The notes beneath the pieces were generated by a model, which saw only the letters and a program-made list of their open reading frames with translations, ran no database searches and had not been told where the DNA came from. A stretch of 64,000 nt of DNA from Gemmatimonadota bacterium (GTDB taxonomy: Bacteria; Gemmatimonadota; Gemmatimonadetes; Longimicrobiales; Gaopeijiaceae), in contig JAJDVT010000140.1 in assembly GCA_022826005.1 (NCBI GenBank), positions 1 to 64,000 of the forward strand, given 5' to 3'. Each line of letters begins with the position of its first letter. Positions within the stretch are counted from its first letter, which is position 1. The position numbers and the translations under genes are program-made. This document shows, in pieces, positions 17,005-46,891 of the stretch.

Positions 17005-17053
17005 ACAAGGGCAGCGACCGTGACGCCTCGAAGGAGGAAAGGGAAACAGATCG

Positions 17054-28217: not shown

Positions 28218-29534
28218 ATGGCTCCAGCGTTCAGATGGTGGGTGACGTTGCTCCTTTTCATGGCTGCCGGTTGCGGCGAGAGCGCCGCGACCGGTGATGC
28301 CGGGACCCCCGCCGAATGGGACCGGGCGGAGTATCCACTCGTAACAGGAATCCAGGACAGCGCTGGCGTCCGAATCGTCGAGAATGCGCGCCCCGCCGAC
28401 GATTCCCGGCTTCCGTGGAGAATCGGCACCGAACCGCTGGTGTCGATCGGCGAGGCCACGGGTGAGGAACCCTACCTGCTCCACCGGGTCATGGATGCGC
28501 TGATGCTCCCGGACCGCCGGGTGGTGATCGTGAACACCGGTACGAGCGAGATCCGCCTGTACGACGCGGAAGGGGTTCACCAGACCACCTGGGGCGGCAC
28601 CGGCGAGGGTCCGGGCGAGTTCCAGTACCTAACGGGCGTCAGGCTGTGGCCCGGGGATTCCATTCTTGCGTTGCACACGCTGGAAGGCGCGTCCGACGGG
28701 GGTTCCTCATGGCGCGGCGATATCTTCGACAGTACCGGCAGACTGGGGCGTTCCTTCCGCACACCGTCCGGCATCGGCTTCCCCTTCCAGCCGGCAATCG
28801 TCCTGGCCGACGGGAGCATTCTCGGTCGCACGAGAATCAGGGCACGCGGCCCCGATGGCCGACAACCTGACGAAGGATACTATCGCGATGAAGCCGAGTA
28901 CGATCTTCTGGGCCGGGACGGGACAACCACGGTTTCCTTTGGCCGCTACCCGGACATCGAGGCTTACACCGGGGTCTTCGCCGGCCTGCCGCTAACGGCG
29001 GGAATGGCCTTCGGCCGACGGGTCATGGAGGCGGTGTGGGGGGACCTGCTGGTCATCGGAAACAACGATCGATACGAGTTGCGCGGGTTCGGCAGGGCGG
29101 ACGCGTCCCTTGAGCGGATTGTGCGGCGCGAGCATACAATCACGGCTCCGACCAGGGCCGAATTGATCGAGGCGCGTGAACGGTCGATAGCGGAAGGCAA
29201 CGTGCCGGAACGGTTCATCCAAATGGGCCGCGCGGCGGCCGCTGAAGCTCCGATCGTAGAGAGCTACCCGGCGTTCAGCGCGATTCTGTCGGACGCCATG
29301 GGCCACCTCTGGGTACGTGAATACGACCTCCCGGGCGAGGACCGCCCCGCACCACTCTGGACGGTGTTCGACGCGGAAGGCCATGCGCTCGGGTTCGTCG
29401 AGACGCCCCCCGGGATGTCGCTCCTCGAGATCGGCGACGACTACCTGCTGGGCTACACGACCGACGAACTCGGGATCGAGAGGGTGCAGGTCTGGGAGTT
29501 GGAACGGGGCAGGTCTCCATCCAGGGTGTCCTGA
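28218..29534 (+). CDS. 6-bladed beta-propeller lipoprotein (ENARPADDSRLPW subtype)
   Basis: 438 residues from ATG 28218 with GGGGG about 10 bases upstream; an in-frame TTG lies at 28212. The lipobox is A-A-G-C. It shows DSAGVRIVENARPADDSRLPW, IGTEPLVSIGEATGEEPYLL, TSEIRLYDAEGVHQTTWG, GTGEGPGEF and a C-terminal DELGIERVQVWELE. These match the gene at 32791 almost segment by segment, so the two are close paralogues separated by 3 kb of other genes. Function unknown; cell-surface or periplasmic. It is followed by a fragment of a different propeller subtype. Confidence 0.88.
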   Translation: MAPAFRWWVTLLLFMAAGCGESAATGDAGTPAEWDRAEYPLVTGIQDSAGVRIVENARPADDSRLPWRIGTEPLVSIGEATGEEPYLLHRVMDALMLPDRRVVIVNTGTSEIRLYDAEGVHQTTWGGTGEGPGEFQYLTGVRLWPGDSILALHTLEGASDGGSSWRGDIFDSTGRLGRSFRTPSGIGFPFQPAIVLADGSILGRTRIRARGPDGRQPDEGYYRDEAEYDLLGRDGTTTVSFGRYPDIEAYTGVFAGLPLTAGMAFGRRVMEAVWGDLLVIGNNDRYELRGFGRADASLERIVRREHTITAPTRAELIEARERSIAEGNVPERFIQMGRAAAAEAPIVESYPAFSAILSDAMGHLWVREYDLPGEDRPAPLWTVFDAEGHALGFVETPPGMSLLEIGDDYLLGYTTDELGIERVQVWELERGRSPSRVS

Positions 29535-29640
29535 TCTCGGAAGAACAGGACCTGTTGCGCCAATGAGCGCGGCCACCACCGCGCGTTACCCTGCCAAGAA
29601 GATTCGGCCATCCCATTTGCTACTGACAGCGGCAAGACCA

Positions 29641-29940
29641 CATTTGGTTCGACGTCCCACAGACGAGTACGTCAGGCTGTATGCCAGTACGGAAGAGAGG
29701 GAAGATGCGCCGGGGAGGTCGGCCACGGATTCAATGGCGAATTCAGTGGACTTCGTTCTGGAGGTAATCGATACGAGATCAGGTGAACTCTTGGCGTCCG
29801 AAGTCTACGCGCAACCGCAAGTGCGGGACATTGTCCCCAGTGGTCTTTTCCGCGGTTCGCTGACAGGGTATCGACACAAGGAAGGCGACGATGGCCTGGC
29901 TTTTGTGGAAGTCGTTACCGTGGAGTTGGTACCGAGGTGA
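29641..29940 (+). pseudogene. C-terminal fragment of a CRIEF-subtype 6-bladed propeller
   Basis: About 99 residues with no start codon in a sensible place: RRPTDEYVRLY, then FVLEVIDTRSGELLASEVYAQPQ, and an end reading LAFVEVVTVELVPR. These match the C-terminal 100 residues of the intact gene ending at 31546 at most positions. The first 300 residues of the gene are missing. It is a duplicated or deletion-derived remnant lying just upstream of the intact copy, in the same orientation. Recombination between the two could have removed the intervening part. Confidence 0.75.
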
Positions 29941-30038
29941 GCCGGCGAAACGAAAGGAGCGCCGTCAGGCCGACAAGAATGGCTGACTTGTACTTGATCC
30001 GTTACTTCGACGGAAGTGTACCCAACAGGAGGAATCCC

Positions 30039-30347
30039 ATGATGAAGATGACCAGGAGTATTCTGTTTGTGATGCTGGCAGGCGTTTTGCCACTGGCTTC
30101 GGCCGGCGAGGTGCCCACGGAGGTCTCGAGGCAGGAGGAGGGCTGCTCGGGGTTTGAAGATTGGCGGGACCATCGCGCGGGCAAGGATTGGCACCAACAT
30201 TCCTCTTCACCTCGTCCTTGGGACCAGCGGCCAGGTGACTGGGAGCAGACTGACGATCCACGGGCTGATGGAAGGCGGCATGAGCTGGCAGGAGGGGAGA
30301 CGCTGGACGACTATTGGGCACATCACAATCCATGCGCCGGCAACTAA
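30039..30347 (+). CDS. Small secreted Trp/His/Asp-rich protein
   Basis: 102 residues from ATG 30039 with a strong AGGAGG site. A clear signal peptide (MMKMTRSILFVMLAGVLPLASA) precedes a mature part of about 80 residues that is strongly hydrophilic: EEGCSGFEDWRDHRAGKD, then WHQHSSSPRPWDQRPGDWEQ, ending DDYWAHHNPCAGN. It has two Cys residues near the ends of the mature part, possibly a disulfide. No family is recognised. It overlaps the next propeller gene by 16 bp, so the two are in one transcription unit. Confidence 0.75.
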   Translation: MMKMTRSILFVMLAGVLPLASAGEVPTEVSRQEEGCSGFEDWRDHRAGKDWHQHSSSPRPWDQRPGDWEQTDDPRADGRRHELAGGETLDDYWAHHNPCAGN

Positions 30348-31546
30348 CTTCAAGTCTCCCTGTGTACCCCCGCCTGGCCTCCCTGCTAGCGGCTTCCGCT
30401 ATAGCGCTGGGTTTGACTCTCGACCGCCCCGGTGAGGATCGGAAACATTGGCAGGAGACCTGCTTGCGGAGCCCCGCGCGCACCTTCGAATTGGGCAGTG
30501 TGACCGAGATTGGGGACCAAGCCCCACCACCGTGCCGCATCGAGTTTCACCCAACCGGAGTCAGGCTCGAGGCGACAGCAGATGGGTCACGCCCCGACCC
30601 GGGTCGGACCGTAGTGGTGGATTCCGATGGTCGCTTCATCTCGGCCAACGCGCGCGGATGGCGAACCGCCATCAGCGTATGGGATGCTCGAGGGAGATAC
30701 CTATCGTCTTTCGGGGGAGAGGGAGAAGGCCCCGGCGAGTTCTTGTCTCGGTATGGGATGCTGAACCTGCTGTTGGACGACCGGGGCAGACTGCACATTC
30801 GGGACGGCTCGCCCGCCTGGTCGCTCTTTTCGCCGGACCACGACTTCATCCGGCGGGTTCCGGCCAACGTGATGGGTGGCCTGATCGGATCGTCGGTCAT
30901 TCTGGACGGAGGATCAGCACTGGCCAGCGACGGCATTCTGTCGAATCAATCGCATTACTTTCGAGTTACCGATACGACAGGTGCACTTGAACGCGTCTTC
31001 GGGCCACTCGGGGACGCAACGGCCGGAACGGAGAGGCGCCCGATCAGCTACGTCGGCGGCGGTTCGTTCTGGGCCGGCCCGGGCGAAAAGGGTGCGCAAT
31101 CCTATCTCCTGGAGGAATGGGGGATTGACGGGGAGTTGCGACGCACGATTCGTCGTGACGTTTCATGGTGGCAGTGGCGTGGCGAGATGGACACATCCGC
31201 CAGAGTGCGCCAGGTACACATCGTTCGCAACGGGTTGCTTTACGTATTGGCTTGGCGTCCGACCGACGAGTACCTCAGGGAATACGAGTCCAGGGCTGGC
31301 AGAGAGCGGCCCGTGGCGGACTGGGAGTGGTGGGAATCACTGGAGGCGATGGCGGAGTACGTCGTGGAGGTGATCGACACGCGATCGGGTGAACTCCTGG
31401 CTTCCGAGGTCTACCCCCAACCGCAGCGGCACGAGATTGTTCCGATGGCGTTGTTTCGCGGCTCATTGGTCGGATATCTGCACAAGGTGGGAGACGACGG
31501 TCTTCCTTTCGTGGAGATCGTGACAGTGGAGTTGGTGCCGAGGTAA
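30332..31546 (+). CDS. 6-bladed beta-propeller secreted protein (CRIEF subtype)
   Basis: 404 residues from ATG 30332 (TTG 30314 is in frame). The N-terminal hydrophobic segment has no lipobox Cys, so it is probably secreted or membrane-tethered. A Cys near residue 41 and the PPPCRIEF Cys are both retained in the paralogue at 46917 and may form a disulfide. The subtype is defined by CRIEFHPTGVRLEATADGSRPD, the GEGEGPGEF motif, RRVPANVMGG, and the C-terminus EVIDTRSGELLASEVY to VTVELVPR. It overlaps the small secreted protein gene. Function unknown. Confidence 0.85.
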   Translation: MRRQLTSSLPVYPRLASLLAASAIALGLTLDRPGEDRKHWQETCLRSPARTFELGSVTEIGDQAPPPCRIEFHPTGVRLEATADGSRPDPGRTVVVDSDGRFISANARGWRTAISVWDARGRYLSSFGGEGEGPGEFLSRYGMLNLLLDDRGRLHIRDGSPAWSLFSPDHDFIRRVPANVMGGLIGSSVILDGGSALASDGILSNQSHYFRVTDTTGALERVFGPLGDATAGTERRPISYVGGGSFWAGPGEKGAQSYLLEEWGIDGELRRTIRRDVSWWQWRGEMDTSARVRQVHIVRNGLLYVLAWRPTDEYLREYESRAGRERPVADWEWWESLEAMAEYVVEVIDTRSGELLASEVYPQPQRHEIVPMALFRGSLVGYLHKVGDDGLPFVEIVTVELVPR

Positions 31547-31709
31547 GGACCTCAAGGGCCACCTGCCGACCACAGCAACTCGGAAAACTATGGAATGACG
31601 CGGCTGGAACAGGGTGGGCGGCCGAACAGAATGCGACAGGGAACGTTCACTTCACATGATTGCTGACGGTCAGTCTTTCTCGCATGGGATTGCCGTTGCC
31701 TGCCGGTCG

Positions 31710-31719
31710 ATGATATCAT
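31710..31719. promoter_or_regulatory. Palindrome/-10 element just upstream of the RHH-nucleotidyltransferase gene
   Basis: ATGATATCAT is a perfect 10-bp palindrome ending six bases before the ATG at 31726. It contains TATCAT, a fair -10 hexamer whose transcription start would fall at or next to the ATG, and no ribosome-binding site is visible, so a leaderless mRNA is plausible. A half-copy (ATGAT) recurs inside the gene near 31733. The encoded RHH domain could bind here; this is inference. Confidence 0.4.
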
Positions 31720-31725
31720 GAATCC

Positions 31726-32310
31726 ATGCAAAATGATACCATCCGCAACCAGCGCGAACGTCCCGCCTCCGGGCGCTTCGTCCTGCGCATCGATCCCTTC
31801 CTGCATGGAACGCTCCGGGCAAGGGCGCGGTCCAAGGGCGTTTCGCTGAATCGGTATTGTGCCCGCGAACTGGGATCGCCGAGCAGCGAGCTGCCGCAGC
31901 CCGCCGCCGCAGCGGTGGGTCGCGCGCACTCGATCCTGGCCGAGTCGCTGTTGGGCGTCGTCGTCTTCGGCTCGTGGGCACGCGGGGAGCCCTCGTCGGA
32001 GTCGGATCTGGACATCCTGCTGATCGCCGACGACCGGCTTCCGATCGCCAGGGCCCTGTACCGGCAATGGGACAACGGCCCCGTGCTGCAGTGGGACGGG
32101 CATGTGGTCGAGCCCCATTTCGTTCACCTGCCGACAGACGTTGAGGCGCCTTCCGGCCTGTGGGCCGAAGTGGCCATTGACGGTCTTGTCCTCTTCCAGA
32201 GGGGGCTGGCGGTCTCGCGCGCGCTGGCAGGCGTCAGGCGCCGGATTCTGGAGGAGCGCCTCTCCCACCGGGTGGTTCACGGGAACTCCTACTGGGTGCG
32301 GGAGCCATGA
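31726..32310 (+). CDS. Ribbon-helix-helix/nucleotidyltransferase fusion (MNT antitoxin-type)
   Basis: 194 residues. Residues about 15-50 (SGRFVLRIDPFLHGTLRARA, SKGVSLNRYCARELG) resemble the HicB/Arc-type RHH DNA-binding domain. After a short linker, about 63-194 form a minimal nucleotidyltransferase with GSWARGEPSSESDLDILL (G82-S83, D94 and D96) and a possible third carboxylate in VVEPHFVH. MntA-type proteins adenylylate partner HEPN toxins; the fused RHH would add transcriptional autoregulation. The stop overlaps the HEPN gene start by ATGA. Most MNT proteins lack a DNA-binding domain, so the fusion is notable. Confidence 0.75.
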   Translation: MQNDTIRNQRERPASGRFVLRIDPFLHGTLRARARSKGVSLNRYCARELGSPSSELPQPAAAAVGRAHSILAESLLGVVVFGSWARGEPSSESDLDILLIADDRLPIARALYRQWDNGPVLQWDGHVVEPHFVHLPTDVEAPSGLWAEVAIDGLVLFQRGLAVSRALAGVRRRILEERLSHRVVHGNSYWVREP

Positions 32311-32717
32311 AGAACACGGGGCTGGCCCGGGATTACCTCCGCCGCGCAAGGGTCCGGCTGGCGGCTCTGGACTTCCTCTTCGACGGGGAGAGCTGGGCCG
32401 ATGTGGTGCGCGAGTCGCAGGAGATCGTCGAGCTGTCCCTGAAGGGGTTGTTACGCTCCGCCGGAATCGATCCCCCGCGGATCCATGATGTCTCGAAGAT
32501 CCTCGTGGCGGAGGGGGACCGGCTGCCCGCGGAGCTGCAATGCGAATTGGAGTGGCTGGCGGACACTTCGCGGCACCTCCGGAGGGACCGCGAGCTGGCG
32601 TTCTACGGGGCGGAGGACCTGACGCCCTCGGGATTCTACTCTCGTGCCGATGCCGAGGGCGCACGGGACGGTGCGCGGCGTGTCGTTGAGGTGGTGTGGC
32701 CGTGGGTGGTCGGATAG
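32307..32717 (+). CDS. HEPN-domain protein, partner of the RHH-nucleotidyltransferase
   Basis: 136 residues forming the all-helical HEPN fold: ARDYLRRARVRLAALDFLF, then VRESQEIVELSLKGLLRSAG and a following HD motif (RIHDVSKIL), as in Pfam HEPN proteins paired with nucleotidyltransferases. I cannot see the R-x4-6-H ribonuclease motif in the usual place, so RNase activity is doubtful. It starts inside the stop of the upstream gene (ATGA) and ends the operon, with a 73-bp gap before the next propeller gene. A toxin-antitoxin or stress-response role is inferred from the pairing. Confidence 0.78.
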   Translation: MKNTGLARDYLRRARVRLAALDFLFDGESWADVVRESQEIVELSLKGLLRSAGIDPPRIHDVSKILVAEGDRLPAELQCELEWLADTSRHLRRDRELAFYGAEDLTPSGFYSRADAEGARDGARRVVEVVWPWVVG

Positions 32718-32790
32718 GCGGCCTCGCATTGACACCGCCCCACGTTCCGCCGTAACATCTCCTAACTCTCTAGGATTTTAGGAGGTGGAG

Positions 32791-34140
32791 ATGTATCGAG
32801 CTGCATCACAGCGGATGGCGGGCAGAATGGGTCGGGCGGTGTCGACCTGGTTGCTGGCGGTCAGCCTTGTCGTGGCCGCCGGCTGCGACGACGGCGACTC
32901 GTCCGAGGCGGGGCCAGAGGTCGAGGAGGATGCAGGGACCGCGCTCGCTGTCGCCGGCGATCGCGCGGGGCAGCCTTTGGTGACTGACATCCGGGACAGC
33001 GCCGGAATCCGGATCATCGAGAACGCACGCCCGGCGGACGATTCGCGCCTTCCATGGCGGATAGGGACCGAGCCGTCGGTGTCGATCGGGGAGATCGACG
33101 GGGACGAACCCTATGTCCTTCACGAGGCGGATGACGCGGTGATGCTTCCGGGCGGGCGCGTCGTCGTAGCGAACACGGGGACCAACGAGATCCGCCTGTA
33201 CGACGCGGACGGCACTCATCAGACCACCTGGGGCGGCAACGGTGCAGGACCGGGCGAGTTCCAGGCTCTTGCCGGCATCGCCCCGTGGCCGGGGGATTCG
33301 ATTCTGGCCTGGGAGGCGATGCGGTCATTGTCGGGAAGAGCCGATCTGTGGCGCGGATCGGTCTTCAACGCCGCGGGCGACCTGGGCCGGTCATTCCGCA
33401 TCGAGTCGCACGACGGCACCGGCCTTGAGCCGCGGGTGGTTCTGGCCGGCGGGGGAATCCTGGGACGAATGACCACGGGCGGCGCGGACGACGGCTACTG
33501 GCGCCATGAGGCCACGTATTCCCTCCTGACCCGCGAGGACGCCGCCGACGTTCCCTTTGGCACCCACCCCGCCCACGAGGGATTCCGCGGGGTGTACAAC
33601 GGCGTGATGCTGCACGTCGCCCACATGGCCTTCAGCCGCGGACTCGAGGAGGCGGCATGGGAAGGCATGCTCGTGATCGCCGCGAACGACCGGTATGAGC
33701 TTCGCGCCTACGGCATGCCGAACGGAACCCTCGCCAGGATCGTGCGCCGGGAGCATTCGAACCGTGCTCCAACCCGCGCCGAGGTTGCCGAGGCGATGCA
33801 CCGCACGTTCATCGAGGGCGAGCAGCCGGAAGAGGTCATCGAGATGTTCCGTCCCGCCTTCGACGAAGCCCCTCTCGTGGAGGGCTTCCCGGCGTTTCGG
33901 TCGGTCCTTGCCGATCCCTTGGGGCACCTGTGGGTGCAGGAGTATACGCCGCCTGACGTGGACAGGCCCGCGCCGCTTTGGACGGTGTTCGGCCCGGACG
34001 GGCGGGCGCTCGGGTTCGTGGAGACCCCGGCCGGGCTGTCGATCTTCGAGATCGGCGCGGGCTACCTTCTGGGCCGCGCGACGGACGAGCTCGGGATCGA
34101 GAGGATTCAGGTGTGGGGGTTGGAGCGGGCCGGGGGGTAA
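32791..34140 (+). CDS. 6-bladed beta-propeller lipoprotein (ENARPADDSRLPW subtype)
   Basis: 449 residues from ATG 32791, placed just after GGAGGTGG; an in-frame GTG at 32785 falls inside that site. The signal peptide ends A-A-G-C, followed by an acidic linker. Shared elements are DSAGIRIIENARPADDSRLPW, IGTEPSVSIGEIDGDEPYVL, TNEIRLYDADGTHQTTWG, GNGAGPGEF, LWVQEYTPPDVDRPAPLWTV and a C-terminal DELGIERIQVWGLE. It is the nearest relative of the gene at 28218. A run resembling TTAGGAGG after an AT-rich ACTCTCTAGGATTTTA stretch lies directly upstream. Function unknown. Confidence 0.88.
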   Translation: MYRAASQRMAGRMGRAVSTWLLAVSLVVAAGCDDGDSSEAGPEVEEDAGTALAVAGDRAGQPLVTDIRDSAGIRIIENARPADDSRLPWRIGTEPSVSIGEIDGDEPYVLHEADDAVMLPGGRVVVANTGTNEIRLYDADGTHQTTWGGNGAGPGEFQALAGIAPWPGDSILAWEAMRSLSGRADLWRGSVFNAAGDLGRSFRIESHDGTGLEPRVVLAGGGILGRMTTGGADDGYWRHEATYSLLTREDAADVPFGTHPAHEGFRGVYNGVMLHVAHMAFSRGLEEAAWEGMLVIAANDRYELRAYGMPNGTLARIVRREHSNRAPTRAEVAEAMHRTFIEGEQPEEVIEMFRPAFDEAPLVEGFPAFRSVLADPLGHLWVQEYTPPDVDRPAPLWTVFGPDGRALGFVETPAGLSIFEIGAGYLLGRATDELGIERIQVWGLERAGG

Positions 34141-37208: not shown

Positions 37209-38300
37209 TCAGCGTGACGCCAACACCGCTCCCGCCGCTCCTATGAAGCCCGCCGAAAGCGCCGAGACGACGGTCGGTTGCGATAGGCCCGCTCCACCCA
37301 GCCACAGAAAGGCCGCCGAGAGGTAAGCCCAGGAACCTGCAAAGCCGCCAGCCATCACGCCCCAGCGCCGGTCGCCGGGTTTCCGCCGGCCTCGCTCCGG
37401 CCGAGATCCTGTCGCCGGCTGGGCCGTGGCTGTGAGGCCGGCGACGATCTCGCGCACACGCCCGTCGGCGATCGAGACCGCCGGGGCCGCAACCTGGGTC
37501 AACCCGTCGACGAGGCCCGTGATCTCGCCAGGGTCCGCGCGACCGCCCCGGCGCATTCCGACCCGCTCGGCCACCGACAGGATGACGCGCACACAATCCC
37601 GCCAGGCCATGACGCACACGAGCACGAACGGGACCGCGGGGGGAGCCAGGGCCAGCCACGGCGGGGAGAGAGCGCCGTGCATCGCAATGAGTTCGGCCAT
37701 GAGGACCATTGTGGCCAGAAACGATCCGACCAATGCCGCGCCTACCGTCCAGCGCACCGCGTAACGGGCGCCGGCTGTGAGGCCTCGGGTGGCCCGGCCC
37801 GTCACGGCGCCCCCGACGCCCGCGACAATCACGAAGAGCGCGACCGCGAAGGGCACCATCAGGCGGGAGTTGTTGTCCGTGACCATGCTTTCGATCAGTA
37901 CAGTGTCATAGGATCCGATGACAGCCTTCCAGGCGTACTCGTATCCGACGGGGGCAACGAGCAGCACGACATAGGTCCCGAGGGCAATGAGCCCCAGTTG
38001 TTTCCAATGACCACGCCTCAAGCCGGAACCCATCTCACCGTACAGGTCAAGACGATTCAGCGCCGAGAAGTACGTCGCAGGCGCCGCCATGAGCGGCAGC
38101 GGCAGGATCGCCATACCGCACACCCTCACAAGACGATGGTCAAGAGGCGTGTCCGGTCCGAGTGCGACGAATGCGCCGGTAGCATAGACCGCGTACAGGG
38201 CGGCGAAGGCAAGTACACAGAGACCGACACAATGCCCGAAGCGGTTCGTCATCTCTCGTCCACGGTACGGACTCCCAGGGTCGGGTGCGTCAGCCGTCAT
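37209..38300 (-). CDS. Polytopic membrane protein, last gene of the peptide operon
   Basis: 363 residues from ATG 38300, overlapping the Cys-rich peptide gene by 11 bp. I count six clear hydrophobic segments in the first 240 residues (for example GLCVLAFAALYAVYATGAFV, LMVPFAVALFVIVAGVGGAV, FVLVCVMAW), a polar Arg-rich stretch (about 240-310), and one or two more hydrophobic segments at the end (WGVMAGGFAGSWAYLSAAFLWLGGAG). No transporter ATP-binding or protease motif is visible. No family is recognised. Its position suggests a role in export, modification or sensing of the peptide, but that is inference. Confidence 0.72.
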   Translation of the reverse strand: MTADAPDPGSPYRGREMTNRFGHCVGLCVLAFAALYAVYATGAFVALGPDTPLDHRLVRVCGMAILPLPLMAAPATYFSALNRLDLYGEMGSGLRRGHWKQLGLIALGTYVVLLVAPVGYEYAWKAVIGSYDTVLIESMVTDNNSRLMVPFAVALFVIVAGVGGAVTGRATRGLTAGARYAVRWTVGAALVGSFLATMVLMAELIAMHGALSPPWLALAPPAVPFVLVCVMAWRDCVRVILSVAERVGMRRGGRADPGEITGLVDGLTQVAAPAVSIADGRVREIVAGLTATAQPATGSRPERGRRKPGDRRWGVMAGGFAGSWAYLSAAFLWLGGAGLSQPTVVSALSAGFIGAAGAVLASR

Positions 38301-38517
38301 TGGGTTTCTCGCACCCCTCGGGCGGACACATCCTGGGCCACCAACAGCACCGGAAGCAGCACAGCCTCCTGCCGTCCGACCAGTCGCGGCAACAGTCGAA
38401 CATCCAGGCCGCCCTGGTCGCCTGCGCGCTCGCCGCGGGCGGCCGCTGCAGCGTGAACGGCAACAGGAGCAGGTTGATCGCCACTGCGATCAGGATCCAG
38501 GTGGTTCTCTTCTTCAT
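38290..38517 (-). CDS. Secreted eight-cysteine peptide
   Basis: 75 residues from ATG 38517, with an AAGGAA site nine bases upstream. A signal sequence (about 1-31, ending A-S-A) leads to a mature part of about 44 residues holding eight Cys: C42-C43, C53-C54, C57-C58, C64 and C69. The CCFRCCWWPRMC cluster is striking and, with Trp residues nearby, suggests a compact disulfide-linked or metal-binding peptide. No family is recognised. It lies 27 bp downstream of the propeller lipoprotein gene and overlaps the membrane protein gene, all on one strand, with a CxxC thioredoxin-like gene upstream. Confidence 0.75.
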   Translation of the reverse strand: MKKRTTWILIAVAINLLLLPFTLQRPPAASAQATRAAWMFDCCRDWSDGRRLCCFRCCWWPRMCPPEGCEKPNDG

Positions 38518-38544
38518 CTTCGGGTTCCTTTTGTGTCTCCGATT

Positions 38545-39744
38545 TCACCGGAGCTCTGGAGGTAGGTCGACTTGTGCCAGGCGTTGTATGGATACCGCAT
38601 CGGTTACAACGCCCAGCATTCCTGAACCTGAAACCCGCACGGGCTGAAACCCCCGCGGAAGTCCTACTCGGGCGAACCGCGGAACCGAGCCGTCGAGTGA
38701 GACCGTGCGCCAGTGGGGACCGTATCCCAGCGGGTGCGCGTCGCCGTCAAACTCCTGGATCCACACTCTGCCGGACGCGCACTTCAGATCAACGCCGGCG
38801 GGAGCGTCGGCGGGAAAGAGGTCCTCGGCCTCCGCCAACGCCGATTCCGCCATGCGGTCGACCAGGTCACCCACCACACCCTCGCCCCGGGCTTCGGTCG
38901 CGATTTGAAAGTGGATGTATGCGAACTTGTCGCTCCTTCGCAGGGCGACGGGTTCCCAGGGAAGCCGGATGGCCTGCGCGTCGTCCTCCGACTGGCCAAC
39001 CACATGGACCGTTCGCGCGATGGGATCGAACACGGCGATTCGTCCATCGGGACATCCGTCCCAGAGCGGGACAGGGACCAGGCCGGGCGCCTGCGGAGAT
39101 GGGCGTTCGGCGAATCCCGCAAGATCGCCGGCGAAATCGAAGATAACCTCACCGACGGGAATCTCCCGGTCGTCGCGAGCCTTGTCGGCCACACGCACGA
39201 GCTTGCCCCGCCAGAGGTCGATGCCGTGGGTGACCCCGGAATCGAACTGCCCGACCACGGTTGCCCCTCCGTTACGGAACAGCCGGAACGGTTGTCCGAA
39301 GGTGACGGTCTCGATGTCGGCCCGCATGCTGCCCAGCCGCGGCATCCGATGCGAAGAGAGGAAGTCCCCACTGGCAGAAAAGGTCAGCGCGGCCGTGGAG
39401 CCTGCGTCCCAGACGGTCACCGCGTCCACGGCGCCTGCCGGCCAGATGGCACGCGGATACCGGAGTTCACCCGGTCCCTGGCCCGGGGTCCCGAAGGTGG
39501 CCATGCGGTGGCCGCCCGCGTCGAACCCGTGCAGGAACGGCGGGGACGCCTTGAGTGCCCAGAAGACGCCACCCGCTTCCAGCACGTCCCTGACGTCCCA
39601 AAGCGAGCCGTCGTCCGGCGACAGCAGGGTCATGGACTCTTCGCCGATTTCGATCAGCGGAAGGTCGTCCGGCCGCTCACCGCCGCAGGACAGCCCGCCC
39701 AGAAGGAGGACCGTGCCGCACCAGGTCCGGCCCCGGCGGATCAC
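38545..39744 (-). CDS. 6-bladed beta-propeller lipoprotein in the peptide operon (divergent subtype)
   Basis: 399 residues from GTG 39744, overlapping the thioredoxin-like stop by GTGA; the ORF extension to 40059 is a shadow of that gene. The lipobox ends G-L-S-C. The core shows GGVFWALKASPPFLHGFDAGG, GTPGQGPGELRYPRAIWP and repeated propeller strands, with a C-terminal RVWIQEFDGDAHPLGYGPHW. It lacks the ENARP and CRIEF motifs, so it is the most divergent of the propellers here, although GPGEL and the general layout are retained. In this operon it may bind or present the secreted peptide; the evidence is position only. Confidence 0.82.
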   Translation of the reverse strand: MIRRGRTWCGTVLLLGGLSCGGERPDDLPLIEIGEESMTLLSPDDGSLWDVRDVLEAGGVFWALKASPPFLHGFDAGGHRMATFGTPGQGPGELRYPRAIWPAGAVDAVTVWDAGSTAALTFSASGDFLSSHRMPRLGSMRADIETVTFGQPFRLFRNGGATVVGQFDSGVTHGIDLWRGKLVRVADKARDDREIPVGEVIFDFAGDLAGFAERPSPQAPGLVPVPLWDGCPDGRIAVFDPIARTVHVVGQSEDDAQAIRLPWEPVALRRSDKFAYIHFQIATEARGEGVVGDLVDRMAESALAEAEDLFPADAPAGVDLKCASGRVWIQEFDGDAHPLGYGPHWRTVSLDGSVPRFARVGLPRGFQPVRVSGSGMLGVVTDAVSIQRLAQVDLPPELR

Positions 39745-40292
39745 GTCTGGCCCCCAAGTCTGCGTACCGCGTCTTCCGCCAGCTCCATGTCGTTCCCATG
39801 GACCTGGAACCGCAGCACGCCGGCCGAATCGAAGACGAAGATCCAGGGAGTCCGGGCCAGCAGGGAATAGTCCCGGTCCGCGGGCGTGAGTTGCGACATG
39901 CTCAACACGTCCATCTTCCATCCGAAGCGCGCCGCATAGGCCAGGGCCGGTTCCGGCAGGTCCATGGTGACGGCCAACCTTCGTACCCGAGTGCCGCCGA
40001 TGTCGTCTCCGGGGGCGTATCGGGACCAGTCCGGCGCGATGGAATCGCAGTAGGCGCACTCGGGATGAAAGGCATAAAGCACCGTCGCCCGTGCGTCGCC
40101 GGCCGCGAGTGGAATAACGGTTGTGGAACCCGCGGCGGTCCGGCCAGACAGCGCACGCACCGTATCGCCCACTCCAAGCGCCGGTGCGGGCTGGACCGCG
40201 TCGCCCTCCGGCGGCCTTCGGCTGACGAGCAGCATGCCCTGGACACCGATTGCCGCAATCAGCAATGCGAGGAGAACCTTTGAGTAGCGCAA
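39741..40292 (-). CDS. Membrane-anchored thioredoxin-like (TlpA/peroxiredoxin-type) protein
   Basis: 183 residues from TTG 40292, with GGAG about nine bases upstream. One N-terminal transmembrane helix (about 5-23), then a periplasmic thioredoxin fold with the active-site HPECAYCDSIAP (C79 and C82, a CxxC), and TPWIFVFDSAGVLRFQVHG, the cis-Pro strand region. TlpA-type proteins reduce or rearrange disulfides in the periplasm. Here the next gene but one encodes an eight-Cys peptide, a plausible substrate. It starts 22 bp after the AraC-type gene and overlaps the propeller gene by GTGA. Confidence 0.88.
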   Translation of the reverse strand: MRYSKVLLALLIAAIGVQGMLLVSRRPPEGDAVQPAPALGVGDTVRALSGRTAAGSTTVIPLAAGDARATVLYAFHPECAYCDSIAPDWSRYAPGDDIGGTRVRRLAVTMDLPEPALAYAARFGWKMDVLSMSQLTPADRDYSLLARTPWIFVFDSAGVLRFQVHGNDMELAEDAVRRLGGQT

Positions 40293-40314
40293 AATCCCGT
40301 CTCCAGGTTTCCGG

Positions 40315-40938
40315 TCAGCCCACGCTTTTCAAGATAGCTTCGGCCACGTATTCATGCCCGCCGCACCACTCCAACTCGGTCGGGGACTTTCCGAACACGC
40401 CGCGCACGAGCCTGCGGTAGTTCGATCGGTCCGAGAACCCCAGCGCCAAGGATACGGACCCGTACGGCTGGCCACTCCACTCCGCGAGACGCTGGACGGT
40501 GAAGATGCGTGCCAGGGCCAACAGTCTCTTGGGCGAAGGGATGCCCAGAATGGTGCACCGGCGCTGCAGCGTCCGGGTGGTTCGGCCGATTTGGCGAGCC
40601 AGATCGGGCACCATGCAGGCGCCAGTGGCGGATTCGAGGGCGTGCTCCATGATCTCGATGGCGTACGGATGGGCCGACTGCTGGATCTGCCGGCGCAAGC
40701 GATCGACGCAATGGGCGTCGATGCTGCTCAGAATGGTCGTGCTGATGGCGCCGAACTCGTCGTCGACGCCGGGACGCAGGTGGGCCGCCACGGTGATGCC
40801 GGTTCGGTCCAGTCGGCGGTCCCGGCCGGGGTCGAGCCGGGCGTAGCAGATGACCGGGGTGTGGGCCAGCTGGCCGTTCCACGCCTCCGCGCCTCCTTTC
40901 GCGATGGGGCTGCCGTTGCCCCGGAAGGTGTCGACCAT
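40315..40938 (-). CDS. AraC-family regulator, start uncertain
   Basis: 207 residues counted from ATG 40938. The C-terminal half holds the two helix-turn-helix motifs of AraC (LARQIGRTTRTLQRRCTILG and YGSVSLALGFSDRSNYRRLVRGVFGKSPTELEW). The same frame stays open and protein-like upstream to about 41170 (for example LLALLASPRLRDRTRVALGF and GPVTYADGWRELGLLAAQHPG), matching the layout of similar regulators with a sensor-like N-terminus. No ATG, GTG or TTG occurs in that extension; a CTG near 41126 is the only near-start I see. The gene is either started at a rare codon or 5'-damaged. It heads the peptide operon, 22 bp before the thioredoxin-like gene. Confidence 0.72.
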   Translation of the reverse strand: MVDTFRGNGSPIAKGGAEAWNGQLAHTPVICYARLDPGRDRRLDRTGITVAAHLRPGVDDEFGAISTTILSSIDAHCVDRLRRQIQQSAHPYAIEIMEHALESATGACMVPDLARQIGRTTRTLQRRCTILGIPSPKRLLALARIFTVQRLAEWSGQPYGSVSLALGFSDRSNYRRLVRGVFGKSPTELEWCGGHEYVAEAILKSVG

Positions 40939-41203
40939 CGCAGGCGACCCCGGGTGTTGCGCAGCCAGGAGGCCCAGCTCGCGCCAGCCGTCCGCGTAGG
41001 TGACCGGGCCGATGATCCGGGACGCGCTCCCGAAACCGAGCGCAACTCGGGTGCGATCGCGCAGCCTGGGACTTGCGAGCAGCGCGAGGAGCGGGGGGGT
41101 GGATGAAGGCCTCAGATTGCCGTCCGGTTCAGGGTGGAGTTCGGCCTCGAGTTCGGCCCCTATACTCTATAGACGCTCGCCGGCCCGATTTTGGGCGGTC
41201 ATT

Positions 41204-41776
41204 TTACGACATATTGTCCAACCAGGCTTCCAAAGCCCTGCCAACCCCCCTCATTCGCCGTATCCGGTAGAGCCCGCGCTCCACCAGGTCTCCAACCGCC
41301 CGGCGGCTGACGCCCAGCGCTTCTGCCGCCTCCGCGGTGCTCCGACCCTCGAGTACGCGAAGAACGATCGCTTCGCGCTCACGATCCGGAAGCTTGCTCA
41401 GGGCCTTGAACAGCGCCTTCCGCAAACGCCGTTGCGTGAGCCGCTCCTGGGGGTCGGGGGCGTCCCCGGGGAGATAGACCAGTTCATCCATCCCCACCTT
41501 GCCCCGATCCTCGCGTCGATCCCGGCGCAGGCTGGAACCGCAGACACTCCGGGAGACGGCGACCGCCCATCCCGCGAATGGTCCGCGCGCCCGGTAGCTG
41601 TCCAGCCGTTCCAGAATGTGAACCCAGCAGTCCTGCAACAGCTCGTCGGCGTGGTCGTCGTCCCGGGCGTAGCCCTGGATCACCGCCAGGAGTTGCGGAC
41701 TGAGTTCCCGGACCAATGCCGTAAGCAACTCCGAATCCCGCGCGCGCAGACGCGCGAGATCGATAGGCGATGTCAT
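41204..41776 (-). CDS. ECF-type RNA polymerase sigma factor
   Basis: 190 residues from ATG 41776, chosen over the frame to 41860 because the extension overlaps the M14 gene end and is Arg/Thr-rich. Region 2 is DELLQDCWVHILERLDSYRARGPFAGWAVAVSRSVC; region 4 is LSKLPDREREAIVLRVLEGRSTAEAAEALGVSRRAVGDLV. No anti-sigma gene is adjacent. It follows the M14 peptidase gene by 25 bp on the same strand, so the two are probably cotranscribed. No ribosome-binding site is obvious. Confidence 0.88.
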   Translation of the reverse strand: MTSPIDLARLRARDSELLTALVRELSPQLLAVIQGYARDDDHADELLQDCWVHILERLDSYRARGPFAGWAVAVSRSVCGSSLRRDRREDRGKVGMDELVYLPGDAPDPQERLTQRRLRKALFKALSKLPDREREAIVLRVLEGRSTAEAAEALGVSRRAVGDLVERGLYRIRRMRGVGRALEAWLDNMS

Positions 41777-41801
41777 CGGGGTACGGGTTCGGGACGGACG
41801 G

Positions 41802-44800
41802 TCACCGGGACCCGTTTCCCCCGGAGTTCCCGTTCGACGCGTTCTCCTCTCCCTCGTCATCGTCCGGATCCTCCGGCGGTCGCGTCCGGCTCATCCGCAA
41901 CGTCGCTCCACCCCGGAACGCCGAACCGCTCCGTGTCACCTCGTGGTTACCGTCGTACAGGTAGTCCAGCAGCGCCTGGTCCCACGAGAGACCGGCCTTC
42001 GCCACCAGCTCCATCCACGGCCCGTACGCGGTCTCGTCCGGGGCCTCGGTTATGCCGCTCCAGATGGTGATGCGCGGGTTGTAGGCGCCACCGCCGCTCG
42101 ATCCCTTCAGCGGCATCTCGATCAACACGCTGTCCGTCATCGGCAGCCGGAAGACCTCTGTGTCGAAATCTGCACCGTAACGGCGATAGCGGGCATAAGC
42201 GCGCTGATTCATCTCGAAGACATCGCGGTTTGAGTTGATTCCGGCGGTGATGTAGTCGCGGATCTTGAACGCGGCGTCCTTGTGCCGGGGAAAGGCCGGA
42301 TCGTCGATATAGCCGAAACCGGGCATGAACCAGCCCTTGTTGAGGCCCCAGTTGCGTTCGGTGACGCGGCCGCTCCGCACCAGCCCGCTGTACTCGGAGA
42401 AGAGCTGGACCACCTGGTGGCTCGGGTACCCGTGGGGGTTCAGGAAGATGTCGGGCAGCCAGCGTTCCCAGAGTTCGCGGCGGACACCGGATTCGGGATA
42501 GACCGGGAAGCTGCCGAATCCGGAGGTCACGTTCACCCCGAGCGATCCGAGGTAGCCGGCGTGCAGGATGTAGTCGGGTGTGATCCGGTAGAGGTCGTAG
42601 GCGAGCTGGGCGCCGTCGGGGTTGGTGAAGGGGTGGATGACGACGTTGACCTTGTCCAGCCTGGGCATCTGCTCGGGGTCGGTGAGGAGGAGTTCGGCGT
42701 GGCGAAGCACATGACTCGTGGACGAGACCTCGTTGGCGTGCTCGCGCGCCGAGTAGATGACCGTCGGCTTGAACGTCGTGGCCTTGACGCGGGACCAGTG
42801 GGTGGTGGTGACCGGGGACATGAGGTCCATCGCCCAGGTGGTCCTGCCGAGATAGCTCTCGCCGACGCGGTACATCGTCGCGTGGTCGAAGGCGTGGCTC
42901 AGCTTGGCCGTCATCTCGTGGCCCTCGGGCGGCGGTATCGGGGTGTCCCACTGGACGATCCTCTCGCCCGTGTATTTCCAGCCGTCGGGCAGCAGGTCGT
43001 TCCACACCGGGAGCGGTTCCGGCACCCCGTTCGCCGGCAGCACGGCGGTCATGCGCGTGGAGTCGGTCGATTCGTGGGTCCAATAGGCCCGGACACCGAT
43101 CTCGCCGAGCTCGTGGTAGGCGAGCGCATCGGTGTAGAGTCCCGCGTCGCGCAGCGTGCCCAGGTTGGCCAGGGTTGCCGCGATCTGCTCGGCGGAGATC
43201 ATGCGGGCGTCGACGGCGTCGGGGGGTGCGAGGATGAGGAGGGAGTCGCGCTGGTCGGTATCGGAGTCGACGCGGAGGCGGAAGTCGAGGCGGGAGAGGA
43301 TGGAGGGGGACGGCTCGCCGCCGGGCCGGGCGCCGGGGTCGGCGTCGGTGGCGGGCGCGACCACGATTCTCCTCAGGCTCGGGCGGCCCATGGAGATCTT
43401 CGGGATGTCGAGGCGCTCCTCGCCGGTGGTGCCGTCGGCCCGCTCGTAGCGGACGATCACCGTCGGCCGGTCCGTGGCGAATCCGGTGAAGGTGATGCGG
43501 CCGCGCCCGGAGGTGCCGTCGCCCTTCGGCCGCATGACGGGGATGATGCGTCCCGGGTAGCTGAGTCCCTGTCCCCGCGCGTTGCGCCCGAGCAGCTGGA
43601 AGAACTCGATCGTGCCGAAGTAGATCTCCTCGTGCAGCGCGTCCATGGTCGAGATGATCTCGTTGTCGACGCCCAGGCGGTAGTCGGGCTCGCTCAGCTC
43701 CAGCTCGACGTTGAGCGTGCCGAAGTAGGGCTGGTCGCCGCGCCCGGAACGCGGGTTCCCCTCATGCCGCTGCATCACGTAGTCGTAGACCGCCGGCAAG
43801 GTGCGGGCCTGGAAGCGGTCCCAGAACCACTCGGGGTCGGTGACGATGCGTTCGTGGGCGAGGGTGTCGGCGCCGGAGGTGGCGGTGATCCACCCGGTCG
43901 TCACGCGCACATGCTCGTAGTCGCGGAACCGGTCGACGTAGGGGCGCAGCACCCAGACGGGGTCGAAGGTTTCTTCCACGATGGTACCGCCGTCCGGTGA
44001 GGTGGCTCGCACGCGGTAGATCGGGCCGTCCTCGACCATTTCGAAGCGTATCTGGCCGAGATCGATCCCCAGGTCCTGCACCAGGATCTCGTCGATCGGA
44101 AAGATCTCGTGCAGCCAGCGCAGGGGCGTGAGCATGGCCTGTTGGGGCCAATCGCCGGGCGGCTCGTTGCGCAGGAACTCGATCACGATTTCGCCGATAT
44201 CCTCTCCCGCGAGCCTGGGCGCGACCGACTCCCTGAGCCAGAAGAAGCCCTGCTTGAAGGCGGAAAGCACCTCGACGGTGGTGGCGTCGGGGTCGGCGCC
44301 GGCTTCGATGAGGCGGCGGCGGGCTTCGTCGGCGACGGCGCGGCGAATTTCGGGGGGTTCGGAGAGCCGGGCGTGGAGGTGGACGGGCGCGCCGGAGGTC
44401 AACTGCGGGATCACGCGGGCCTCGAAGGCGTCCCGGAACCTGTCTGTTTCGGAGGGCACTCCAAATTGGTCGTCGAAAACGGTATCCGCGGCCTGGACGT
44501 CCCGATTGTCGATCGTGACGGAGATGTTCTCCGTGCCGAGTGCCGCGGCGCGCTCCCGCACCACGTCGGCCAGGCCGGGCGGGGCCTTCTCGGCGGAGAC
44601 GAGGATTTCGGCCGAGGCGATGTCCTCGTCGGCCAGCCCGGCCACGATCCGGTCCAGCTTGTAGAGGCCGATCGCGGCCTGGCCTCCGGGAGTGTAGCCG
44701 GACAGCGTGCCCCAGAGTTCCTGCTCGATGTCGCTGAAGGTGGGGGTGCCGTCGGCCCACGCGCTTACACCGGGGAAGACCTCTGCCAGGCGCTTCGTGG

Positions 44801-46163
44801 CCATTGTGGCGCCCGCATGATCGGAACCGGTAACCACGACGGCGGACCTGCTTCCGAAGGCATCCGGCACGATCTCGATCAGGCCGTGACCGGGCGGCAA
44901 CGCTCCCGGCGCGATCCTGCCGCTGTCGGCGAGCTCGGCGATGAACGGGTGATCGCTGCCCACCAGGACCATCGCGGGCTCCCGCGCCGCGTTGTCGATC
45001 TCGTCCGTGGTCTTGACCAGCGGGACGGTGAATCCGGTGGTCTCCAGACCCAGCCGGGCCGCGAGTTCGGGCACGCCCTCGGCACCGTCGCCCGGCACGA
45101 CGACCACGCTGACGCTGTTGGGGATGTCGCCGCCGCCGAGGAAGCCCCCGCTCCTGTAGAGGTCGGCGAGGTTGGGCGTGCCCCCACCTCCGCCGGGCCG
45201 GCCGCCGGACGGGGACGAGGGTGCCAGTGCCGGAAGCTCGACTTGCAGGCCGCCCCCGGTGACGGTGACCGCGGCGAGGTTTCGGAAGCGCAGATCGGAG
45301 GAAGCGTCCTCCGTGCTGTCGGCGTCTGCACCGGTGTTTCCGCGGGCCAGGGCGCCGAGGCGGTCGAGCGCGTCGGCGGTGAGGGAGTCCGCGGTGGCGG
45401 CGTCCAGCGTCGGGTCGGCGTCCGGGTCGGCAACAAAGTCCAGTTCGGCGACCAGGTGGACTTCGTCGTCCGGGCTATTGACGGAAACGCGCGGGTATGA
45501 AAAGCTGGCCGATCGAGCCATTGAGTCGCCCGCCGCGAGCCATTCGTTGATCTGCTCGCCGACATCGGCGATGGTTGGCCCGGAGAGGGACCGGATGTGG
45601 GGCAGTGAGCCCGCGAGAAGTCGTGCAGCGCGAAGAATGGCGTCGTCGTCACCGCCCAGGACGGCCACCCAGCGGTCGCCGGCCGGGGTCGTCAGGGTGG
45701 CGACGGTGGGGGGCGTGCCGGAGGCCGGAGTGTGGATGCCGAAGTCCGCGGGCGAAAGCCCCAGGGGTTCCAGGGCACGGTGGCCGATCAGGATGCCGAC
45801 CTGTCCGGGCCGGAAGCCGCGCCGCAGCGGCAGATCGAGTGCCATGGTCTCGAAACCCAGCCGGGCCGCGATCTCGGCGGCGGCTACCCGTTCGGCGGTG
45901 GTCGGTTCGGGCGCGAGAACCAGCGTCGCGCCGAGGCGGTCGGGCACGCTGTCGCCGTTCTCGTCAAGGAGGAGGTGGCCGAAATCGAACAGCGTGGCGA
46001 GGTCGAGGGGGGGTGGGGTGGCGGGTGGGGCCTGGGCCGTGGCGGGGTGGGGGGGTGCCAGCAGCGCGGCCAGGGTGGTGAGGAGGAGCAGCGAGGGGTG
46101 GAGGCCGGTTGTGCCGGGGATGGCAGCCGTGTGGGGCGGGGTGGGGTGGCGGGAGGTGCTCAT
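41802..46163 (-). CDS. Large secreted M14-family zinc carboxypeptidase-like protein
   Basis: About 1453 residues from ATG 46163; the upstream frame to 46475 does not look coding. A signal peptide ends T-A-Q-A. The N-terminal 900 residues hold repeated alpha/beta segments with ILIGHRAL, VVPGDGAEGVPELAARLGLETTG and similar text, and beta-sandwich regions. The catalytic domain lies at about 1080-1400: zinc ligands H-x-x-E in SAREHANEVSS (near 1143) and a His in NPHGYPSHQVV (near 1246). An M14 peptidase with such a long N-terminal part is unusual but seen in secreted proteins of this kind of organism. The Glu general base cannot be assigned with confidence. Confidence 0.83.
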   Translation of the reverse strand: MSTSRHPTPPHTAAIPGTTGLHPSLLLLTTLAALLAPPHPATAQAPPATPPPLDLATLFDFGHLLLDENGDSVPDRLGATLVLAPEPTTAERVAAAEIAARLGFETMALDLPLRRGFRPGQVGILIGHRALEPLGLSPADFGIHTPASGTPPTVATLTTPAGDRWVAVLGGDDDAILRAARLLAGSLPHIRSLSGPTIADVGEQINEWLAAGDSMARSASFSYPRVSVNSPDDEVHLVAELDFVADPDADPTLDAATADSLTADALDRLGALARGNTGADADSTEDASSDLRFRNLAAVTVTGGGLQVELPALAPSSPSGGRPGGGGGTPNLADLYRSGGFLGGGDIPNSVSVVVVPGDGAEGVPELAARLGLETTGFTVPLVKTTDEIDNAAREPAMVLVGSDHPFIAELADSGRIAPGALPPGHGLIEIVPDAFGSRSAVVVTGSDHAGATMATKRLAEVFPGVSAWADGTPTFSDIEQELWGTLSGYTPGGQAAIGLYKLDRIVAGLADEDIASAEILVSAEKAPPGLADVVRERAAALGTENISVTIDNRDVQAADTVFDDQFGVPSETDRFRDAFEARVIPQLTSGAPVHLHARLSEPPEIRRAVADEARRRLIEAGADPDATTVEVLSAFKQGFFWLRESVAPRLAGEDIGEIVIEFLRNEPPGDWPQQAMLTPLRWLHEIFPIDEILVQDLGIDLGQIRFEMVEDGPIYRVRATSPDGGTIVEETFDPVWVLRPYVDRFRDYEHVRVTTGWITATSGADTLAHERIVTDPEWFWDRFQARTLPAVYDYVMQRHEGNPRSGRGDQPYFGTLNVELELSEPDYRLGVDNEIISTMDALHEEIYFGTIEFFQLLGRNARGQGLSYPGRIIPVMRPKGDGTSGRGRITFTGFATDRPTVIVRYERADGTTGEERLDIPKISMGRPSLRRIVVAPATDADPGARPGGEPSPSILSRLDFRLRVDSDTDQRDSLLILAPPDAVDARMISAEQIAATLANLGTLRDAGLYTDALAYHELGEIGVRAYWTHESTDSTRMTAVLPANGVPEPLPVWNDLLPDGWKYTGERIVQWDTPIPPPEGHEMTAKLSHAFDHATMYRVGESYLGRTTWAMDLMSPVTTTHWSRVKATTFKPTVIYSAREHANEVSSTSHVLRHAELLLTDPEQMPRLDKVNVVIHPFTNPDGAQLAYDLYRITPDYILHAGYLGSLGVNVTSGFGSFPVYPESGVRRELWERWLPDIFLNPHGYPSHQVVQLFSEYSGLVRSGRVTERNWGLNKGWFMPGFGYIDDPAFPRHKDAAFKIRDYITAGINSNRDVFEMNQRAYARYRRYGADFDTEVFRLPMTDSVLIEMPLKGSSGGGAYNPRITIWSGITEAPDETAYGPWMELVAKAGLSWDQALLDYLYDGNHEVTRSGSAFRGGATLRMSRTRPPEDPDDDEGEENASNGNSGGNGSR

Positions 46164-46374
46164 GAAGTGACTGTCTCCGGGAAGCAAGAACACTTGCGGC
46201 TGGCGTCGGGATGAAAATGACGTGGCGGGGGACGCGAGGCCACCTTGCAATGTGCGAGGCTCCCGCCTGCGTGAGCGCCAATCGAATCCGGCCTGCGTGC
46301 GCTCGCGCATCGCATGGTTAGCATCAACATCCATTTCCATGGAGGTCCCGTTGATCAGAACAAGGAGCTCCTGG

Positions 46375-46891
46375 ATGGGACGTTTGAGCGTGTTTCCAGC
46401 CTCCGCGACCGTGTGGGGAGTCCTCGCGGTGGCCGGTTGCGGCGGCGGTGGCCCCCAGGCCGGTGATGAGCCCATCGGTTGGAGCGGAGCCCTCGGACGC
46501 GCACCGCGTCCCCGCGGAGAGGCCCGAGCTGCTTGCCGTGCATCGCTCGGGAGAGGTGATTCTCAGGGCGGAGTGGAACTCGGGGGATCGCAGCATTCCG
46601 CCGGCGGCGCCGGACTTCCGGGAGGTCGCCGAGCGCTTTCCGGCCGCAGCCGGCCTGCAGATCGGCACGGATGGCCTTATCTGCGTTCAGCGTTGGACCG
46701 TGCGCGACGACCGGCCGGTCCGGGGTCCGGATTGGCTCGTGTTCAGCTCGGACGGTGACCTGGTGGCCCGCCTCGAGATGCGCTCCGCGTGGCGCGTTCT
46801 GGCATTCGGCGACCGGGCCCCTGTCGCGGCGGTGTACGTTGGCGACAACTTCCAGGAGGTCCGCGTGTACTCACTCGACGGCGTGGAATAG
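46375..46891 (+). pseudogene. 6-bladed propeller remnant: signal peptide joined out of frame to a C-terminal piece
   Basis: An ATG at 46375, behind AAGGAGC, opens a lipoprotein signal (lipobox V-A-G-C) followed by a short linker. The matching propeller C-terminus (RAEWNSGDRSIPP, WLVFSSDGDLVARLEM, VYVGDNFQEVRVYSLDGVE) is in another frame, open from 46448 to 46891. Together they would give only about 170 residues against the usual 400, so an internal deletion of most blades plus a frameshift has occurred. It stands 25 bp upstream of an intact propeller gene, a second case in this window of a broken copy preceding a whole one. Confidence 0.65.

Follow-up and report, generated by a model that had tools for sequence, protein, structure and literature searches.

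An eight-cysteine peptide encoded with a thioredoxin-fold partner and a sigma factor

A gene for a predicted secreted peptide of 75 residues was identified in a 64,000-nucleotide stretch of a Gemmatimonadota genome (GenBank assembly GCA_022826005.1, contig JAJDVT010000140.1; the whole stretch is referred to here as the window), where it is clustered with genes for a membrane-anchored thioredoxin-fold protein (Trx), a putative β-propeller lipoprotein, a polytopic membrane protein (memA), an AraC-type regulator and an extracytoplasmic function (ECF) sigma factor. This gene set, designated here as the cassette, probably represents a dedicated, sigma factor-controlled module for the export of a disulfide-rich peptide that is folded with a Trx-fold partner of its own. 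The evidence that carries this reading was computed, and concerns the reality of the peptide gene, the conservation of its cysteines, its linkage to both the Trx and the ECF genes, and the conservation of promoter elements.

The peptide of the window was predicted to consist of a signal sequence, MKKRTTWILIAVAINLLLLPFTLQRPPAASA, and a mature part, QATRAAWMFDCCRDWSDGRRLCCFRCCWWPRMCPPEGCEKPNDG, with the cleavage point after ASA judged by eye. It is encoded by the sole open reading frame (ORF) on either strand of the window to pass a filter for small, signal-bearing, Cys-rich products, the background rate of such ORFs being 0.011 per kb. A single-sequence search detected the peptide in most genomes of the genus, while a profile search detected it in 21 of the 23 genus genomes and in four other genera of the family (27 of 121 genomes). 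Among 395 sampled genomes of the phylum, one further clear case was found (G327, from another family).

Conservation of the cysteines among homologues had been set as a test by a preliminary description of this locus, and all eight, together with Asn15, were retained without exception in a 33-row peptide alignment. The framework CC-X8/9-CC-X2-CC-X5-C-X5-C was fitted by 63 distinct homologues, with other loop lengths in a few, and the sequences that did not fit were shown to be contig-end or partial fragments, two pieces of a frameshifted copy (L054), a degraded copy, a false match and one divergent variant. Based on the three closest orthologues, the ratio of non-synonymous to synonymous substitution rates (dN/dS) was about 0.25-0.45 for the peptide, compared with 0.18-0.37 for its neighbours, and purifying selection acts on every gene of the cassette. 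No relative of the peptide was found in Pfam, NCBIfam or the PDB, the best result of the PDB profile search being a chance-level match (E=3.1). A short ORF in a GC-rich genome may arise by chance beside unrelated genes, yet this explanation deserves virtually no credence here and was rejected because the Cys framework is conserved in 63 homologues under purifying selection, with neighbours that are likewise fixed. The peptide gene is therefore real rather than spurious.

Asn15 (window positions 38473-38475) is located in the middle of the signal helix and is invariant in all 33 peptides, which is unusual for a plain signal peptide and could reflect a specific membrane partner or processing step. 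Up to seven copies were observed per genome, and tandem copies occur; in the third tandem cassette of G018 (L054:9152-11243), the peptide gene is frameshifted and the Trx frame is intact.

Linkage of the peptide to its Trx-fold partner

In the 23 genus genomes, a peptide gene was located no more than 3 kb from 52 of 55 Trx homologues, against about 0.4% expected per gene, and 52 of 58 peptide places (fragments of one gene being counted once) have a Trx gene within 3 kb, although these counts treat related genomes as separate observations and so overstate their independence. The exceptions are mostly found at contig ends, and genomes G009 and G011 encode neither protein. Trx homologues that lack the peptide, which the preliminary description had named as evidence against its own reading, are thus rare. 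Despite the kinship within these counts, Trx and peptide genes are associated in several families and with more than one peptide framework.

Membership of the thioredoxin fold was indicated by Trx-type profile matches, a nucleophilic Cys and a cis-Pro: AhpC-TSA was matched by 12 of 35 members (best 4e-8), thiol-disulfide proteins were matched in the PDB, and C79 and P149-W150 (the cis-Pro motif) were invariant in the 35-row alignment. Position 82, in contrast to C79, is Cys in 14 rows, Ser in 16 and Thr in five. A Trx tree built with the motif columns left out splits the two cassette subtypes described below (A and B) and implies, by parsimony, at least five changes between Cys and Ser/Thr. 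The CxxC positions C79/C82 had been reported correctly for the window copy, and the idea that a CxxC protein matures the peptide holds with regard to co-inheritance with a Trx-fold partner, but not with regard to CxxC as the unit, as the second Cys is replaced by Ser or Thr in 21 of 35 members. A two-Cys oxidase is therefore not the general mechanism, and a classical CxxC (DsbA/TlpA-type) dithiol oxidoreductase was rejected for the family because the second Cys is not conserved. A nucleophile forming mixed disulfides, as in an isomerase or holdase, would fit all members. CxxS variants have been treated in publications on thioredoxin-fold proteins and protein disulfide isomerases (for example, PMC2757866 and PMC12384036).

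Furthermore, distant Trx relatives in other families of the phylum (and G004:C95 of the genus) were located directly upstream of genes for secreted Cys-rich proteins with other frameworks. Eight of ten testable loci carry at least one small secreted Cys-rich gene, as defined by a home-made gene caller and Cys-rich-ORF filter, on the same strand and at most 260 nt downstream, whereas 0.005 such genes are expected per locus. One of the remaining two has a Cys-rich gene 1.6 kb away and the other has none; two more loci lie at contig ends and were kept outside the count. By comparison, none of 30 control genes of the AhpC/TlpA type from the window's genome had a credible Cys-rich secreted neighbour. 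At L146, L147, L149, L150, L151, L154, L156 and L158, most of them from other Gemmatimonadota families, one to three tandem, unrelated Cys-rich peptides are encoded directly downstream of the Trx relative. Some of these paired peptides have a defensin-like Cys spacing, for example C-x4-C-x3-C-x9-C-x5-C-x-C in L150. In G051, from a related family, an 8-Cys peptide with longer loops has a CxxS Trx and an AraC-type gene as neighbours.

Six more small secreted Cys-rich ORFs were observed away from any Trx gene of this family (L111:10318-10524, L119:2080-2346, L120:1838-2134, L122:387-620, L129:17371-17598 and L062:10780-11097), possibly representing other peptide families.

Cassette subtypes, sigma factors and promoter elements

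Gene calling on about 70 loci revealed the two subtypes. In subtype A, to which the window belongs, the order is M14 peptidase - ECF - promoter - Trx - propeller - peptide - memA - AraC. Rearrangements occur, some loci have lost the propeller, and G018 carries three units in tandem; unlike the usual order, AraC precedes Trx in the window and in the two relatives closest to it. Subtype B is arranged as peptide - memB - ECF - anti-sigma factor of the HxxxCxxC zinc type, with the Trx gene being divergent, upstream or close by. Its memB is shorter than memA, and its anti-sigma factor has membrane segments and a weak RsrA-like match. An ECF gene, with Sigma70 regions 2 and 4, adjoins the cassette in both subtypes, and nearly every cassette has one of its own. 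Comparison of the neighbourhoods showed that the ECF gene directly upstream of the five remaining genes of the window belongs to the unit. The preliminary description had taken those five genes as the whole system, and in this respect was too narrow, as the same constancy is shown by the ECF sigma factor with its promoter and, within subtype A, by the M14 peptidase.

The subtype A element consists of TGTCGnAAAnTGACC, followed after 20-22 bases by CGTC, CGTT, CATC or CATT. It lies between the ECF gene, which it follows closely, and Trx, AraC or memA, with a single copy in the window. The subtype B element, TTGCAC-N16-CTGT, precedes the peptide gene in ten loci and the Trx gene in ten loci. Because the patterns were drawn up from sequences already inspected, their enrichment is partly by construction: about 18 subtype A sites were counted in the loci, compared with 1.4 in shuffled and none in reversed sequence; a looser subtype B pattern yielded 49 matches, including the peptide and Trx sites, compared with 14 in shuffles; and a stricter pattern with at most two mismatches yielded 21 sites in the window's genome, including positions upstream of propeller genes and of an ECF gene, compared with eight in a reversed control. 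The fixed position of the element between the ECF gene and the next gene is a stronger argument than this enrichment.

In the same genome (C139, C71, C89, C133 and C76; L161-L181), TTGCAC-N16-CTGT was observed before the peptide, Trx, propellers, another ECF gene and a short protein of 46-79 aa, the -10 variant of the C71 cassette being GTGT, compared with CTGT in the other cassettes. These ECF-type promoter sites apparently form a regulon with cassette-specific -10 letters, and their position suggests that each promoter is paired with the neighbouring ECF factor.

Gene organization of the cassette in the window

All genes of the cassette are encoded on the minus strand (Table 1). The close packing of the five genes given in the preliminary description was recovered, with a 22 bp gap, a GTGA overlap, a 27 bp gap and an 11-bp overlap, as was the presence of eight Cys in the 44-residue predicted mature part of the peptide.

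Table 1. Features of the cassette locus in the window
Feature	Position	Strand	Remarks
Large protein of M14-type (zinc carboxypeptidase-like) character	41802..46475	-	Immediately upstream of the ECF gene
ECF sigma factor	41204..41860	-	Pfam Sigma70_r2/r4, TIGR02937; alternative start ATG at 41776 possible
Promoter-like element TGTCGTAAAATGACC-N21-CGTC, putative ECF promoter	41172..41211	-	Overlaps the ECF stop codon
AraC-type regulator	40315..41139	-	HTH_18, E=6.6e-11
Trx, membrane-anchored thioredoxin-fold protein	39741..40292	-	C79-A-Y-C82; TTG start
Propeller (NHL/6-bladed beta-propeller), putative lipoprotein	38545..39744	-	Conserved C231 and C322
Secreted peptide (predicted), 75 aa	38290..38517	-	CC-X9-CC-X2-CC-X5-C-X4-C; invariant Asn15
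memA, polytopic membrane protein	37209..38300	-	About 6 transmembrane segments; 16-row alignment

The AraC frame of the window contains no ATG, GTG or TTG upstream of 40938, yet homology extends further upstream. In the region corresponding to 40938-41172, the two closest relatives (L043 and L044) have an extra memA copy and an AraC start codon just after the promoter, because of which the window copy looks as if it had undergone a recent deletion or a misassembly at this point. The AraC gene of the window may thus be shortened to the ATG at 40938, or an unusual start may be in use.

The large protein upstream of the ECF gene is presumably of the M14 type, as judged from an HxxE motif and general knowledge. 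A homologue, 71-96% identical, is located directly upstream of the ECF gene in nine subtype A loci, and the two closest relatives and G021 have its 3' part at their loci; this putative M14 protein is a conserved neighbour in subtype A.

The membrane proteins memA and memB are homologous (hhalign E=1.6e-5, probability 79). Over their transmembrane segments, they weakly resemble LptF/LptG (PF03739; best 9e-4, 7 of 20 members, window protein E=0.11), and this identity was rejected as the curated cut-off of PF03739 was not reached. The propeller was assigned by profile matches (E=8e-19 against NHL structures; PF17170 in 3 of 20 members) to the NHL/6-bladed beta-propellers, the blade count being a family label only, and it retains two internal Cys. 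Propellers are also abundant outside cassettes. Within the window, positions 14543-19608 and 28218-34140 encode series of propeller lipoproteins with DSAGIRIVEN-like starts, none of which has a small Cys-rich neighbour. Sets of memB, ECF and anti-sigma genes, many of them beside propellers, were also found without a recognizable peptide or Trx (L130-L142); of these, L131 and L141 contain truncated peptide-like signal sequences, and nothing recognizable was seen in the rest.

Proposed mechanism and alternative explanations

In the proposed module, the ECF sigma factor would read its cognate promoter and thereby switch on the operon of Trx, propeller, peptide and membrane protein. The peptide would leave the cytoplasm by the Sec pathway and, once in the periplasm, would pair its eight Cys with assistance from the membrane-anchored Trx-fold partner. 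Through its one invariant, nucleophilic Cys, this partner may serve as a disulfide isomerase or mixed-disulfide holdase. VKOR, which is encoded in the window's genome, or another general pathway would supply the oxidising power. That the mature peptide contains disulfides is suggested by the even number of Cys, the signal sequence and the Trx linkage. Its site of action would be the cell envelope or beyond, where the propeller may be its binding partner and the membrane protein a receptor, exporter or protector.

Several points weigh against this module. The evidence for every cassette part is sequence-based, and release of the peptide beyond the periplasm is a prediction. Absence of the second Trx Cys excludes a simple two-Cys oxidase for the members concerned. 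The propeller is the variable part of the cassette, being absent from several peptide-Trx loci, and the membrane protein and sigma module is not peptide-specific, because peptide-free memB-ECF-anti-sigma loci exist. Finally, AlphaFold models of memA and the propeller, from shallow alignments (rows from the window and L038/L039), reached a predicted local distance difference test (pLDDT) score of only 41 and 45, respectively.

Two end uses of the peptide, as a signal or as an antimicrobial, are compatible with a maturation module. As a signal, it would be sensed by the propeller or the membrane protein and feed back on the ECF/anti-sigma pair or AraC, with paralogous cassettes insulated from each other. 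Such a role would account for the ECF factor owned by nearly every cassette, the membrane-spanning zinc anti-sigma factor added in subtype B, the -10 difference (CTGT versus GTGT) between cassette promoters of the same genome, and the same promoter on other propellers; however, no receptor domain was identified, the promoter pattern is explained by autoregulation alone and peptide specificity has to be assumed, making this rather improbable. An antimicrobial (bacteriocin-like) peptide, which would kill competitors, with memA/memB providing immunity or export and divergent copies reflecting an arms race, appears slightly more doubtful still, even though multiple and tandem copies, one frameshifted (in G018), a polytopic membrane protein that is usually nearby, and the known dependence of other exported peptides on an oxidoreductase (sublancin, PMC6391423; EntV, PMC6606811) are in its favour. 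The cores are acidic on average (mean net charge -1.8, range -10 to +4), unlike most membrane-active peptides, which disfavours the cationic membrane-active type; moreover, dN/dS is not elevated, no dedicated exporter was seen and memB also occurs without the peptide.

A quite different function would be that of a redox or metal sensor or ligand, whose eight Cys, remaining partly reduced in the periplasm, would coordinate metal or signal thiol stress to the sigma/anti-sigma pair. The HxxxCxxC zinc-type motifs and weak RsrA-like match of the subtype B anti-sigma factor are consistent with this, as are Trx partners with a CxxS/T motif, since CxxS/T Trx-fold proteins are poor oxidases. Nevertheless, it is very unlikely, given that the mature peptide of the window is devoid of His, that export leads to a probably oxidising compartment in a genome encoding VKOR, and that the Cys residues keep a constant spacing, like those of disulfide frameworks.

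The dedicated export and folding module may also be part of a wider picture, which we put forward tentatively and with less confidence than the module itself: a phylum-wide Gemmatimonadota programme that relies on one Trx-fold subfamily, dedicated to folding or activating many unrelated secreted Cys-rich mini-proteins. In the present lineage, this would have become an ECF-controlled, duplicated peptide-communication or peptide-weapon system, in which a monothiol (CxxS/T) partner and its peptide are joined by a specific mixed disulfide.

Significance and comparison with known systems

To our knowledge, few bacterial disulfide-rich peptides have a folding partner of their own. Literature searches that combined Gemmatimonadota or ECF factors with Cys-rich peptides yielded nothing on this system, which adds a large undescribed peptide family with a fixed eight-Cys framework and its own sigma factor and promoter, repeatedly duplicated in Gemmatimonadota. 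Repeated loss or regain of the resolving Cys in its Trx partner provides a natural experiment on how a peptide is served by a monothiol Trx-fold protein, and secreted Cys-rich peptides missed by annotation can be sought with the Trx gene as bait.

NVEALA peptides of Bacteroidota, to which the preliminary description had pointed as a possible parallel, are likewise small, secreted and Cys-bearing, and sit near 6-bladed propellers, whereas the constant partners in the cassette are Trx and the ECF factor. Kinship was not borne out, and NVEALA membership was rejected: PF14055 was matched by none of the 33 peptide members at E<=1 and was absent from the whole genome, with a positive Bacteroides control.

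Bacterial cis-defensins (CS-alpha-beta) are also secreted Cys-rich mini-proteins, and are resembled in Cys spacing by some peptides paired with Trx relatives elsewhere in the phylum, such as that of L150. Conversely, the window peptide has CC doublets and lacks the CxxxC...CxC pattern, setting it apart from defensins. A survey of cis-defensins does not mention Gemmatimonadota in its main text (PMC11561630). For memA/memB, likeness to LptF/LptG permeases is confined to weak profile matches, with no Lpt partner gene seen in the loci.

Also comparable are sublancin/BdbB and EntV, in which the disulfides of exported peptides depend on a thiol-disulfide oxidoreductase (PMC6391423, PMC6606811). Both share with the proposed module a small exported peptide and a Trx-fold protein for its disulfides, encoded alongside in the case of sublancin; beyond the Trx fold, no sequence relation turned up, and none was sought. 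The cassette differs from both in its predicted Gram-negative-type Sec export without a dedicated transporter, its four potential disulfides, its ECF sigma control, its propeller neighbour and a Trx that often has a single active-site Cys.

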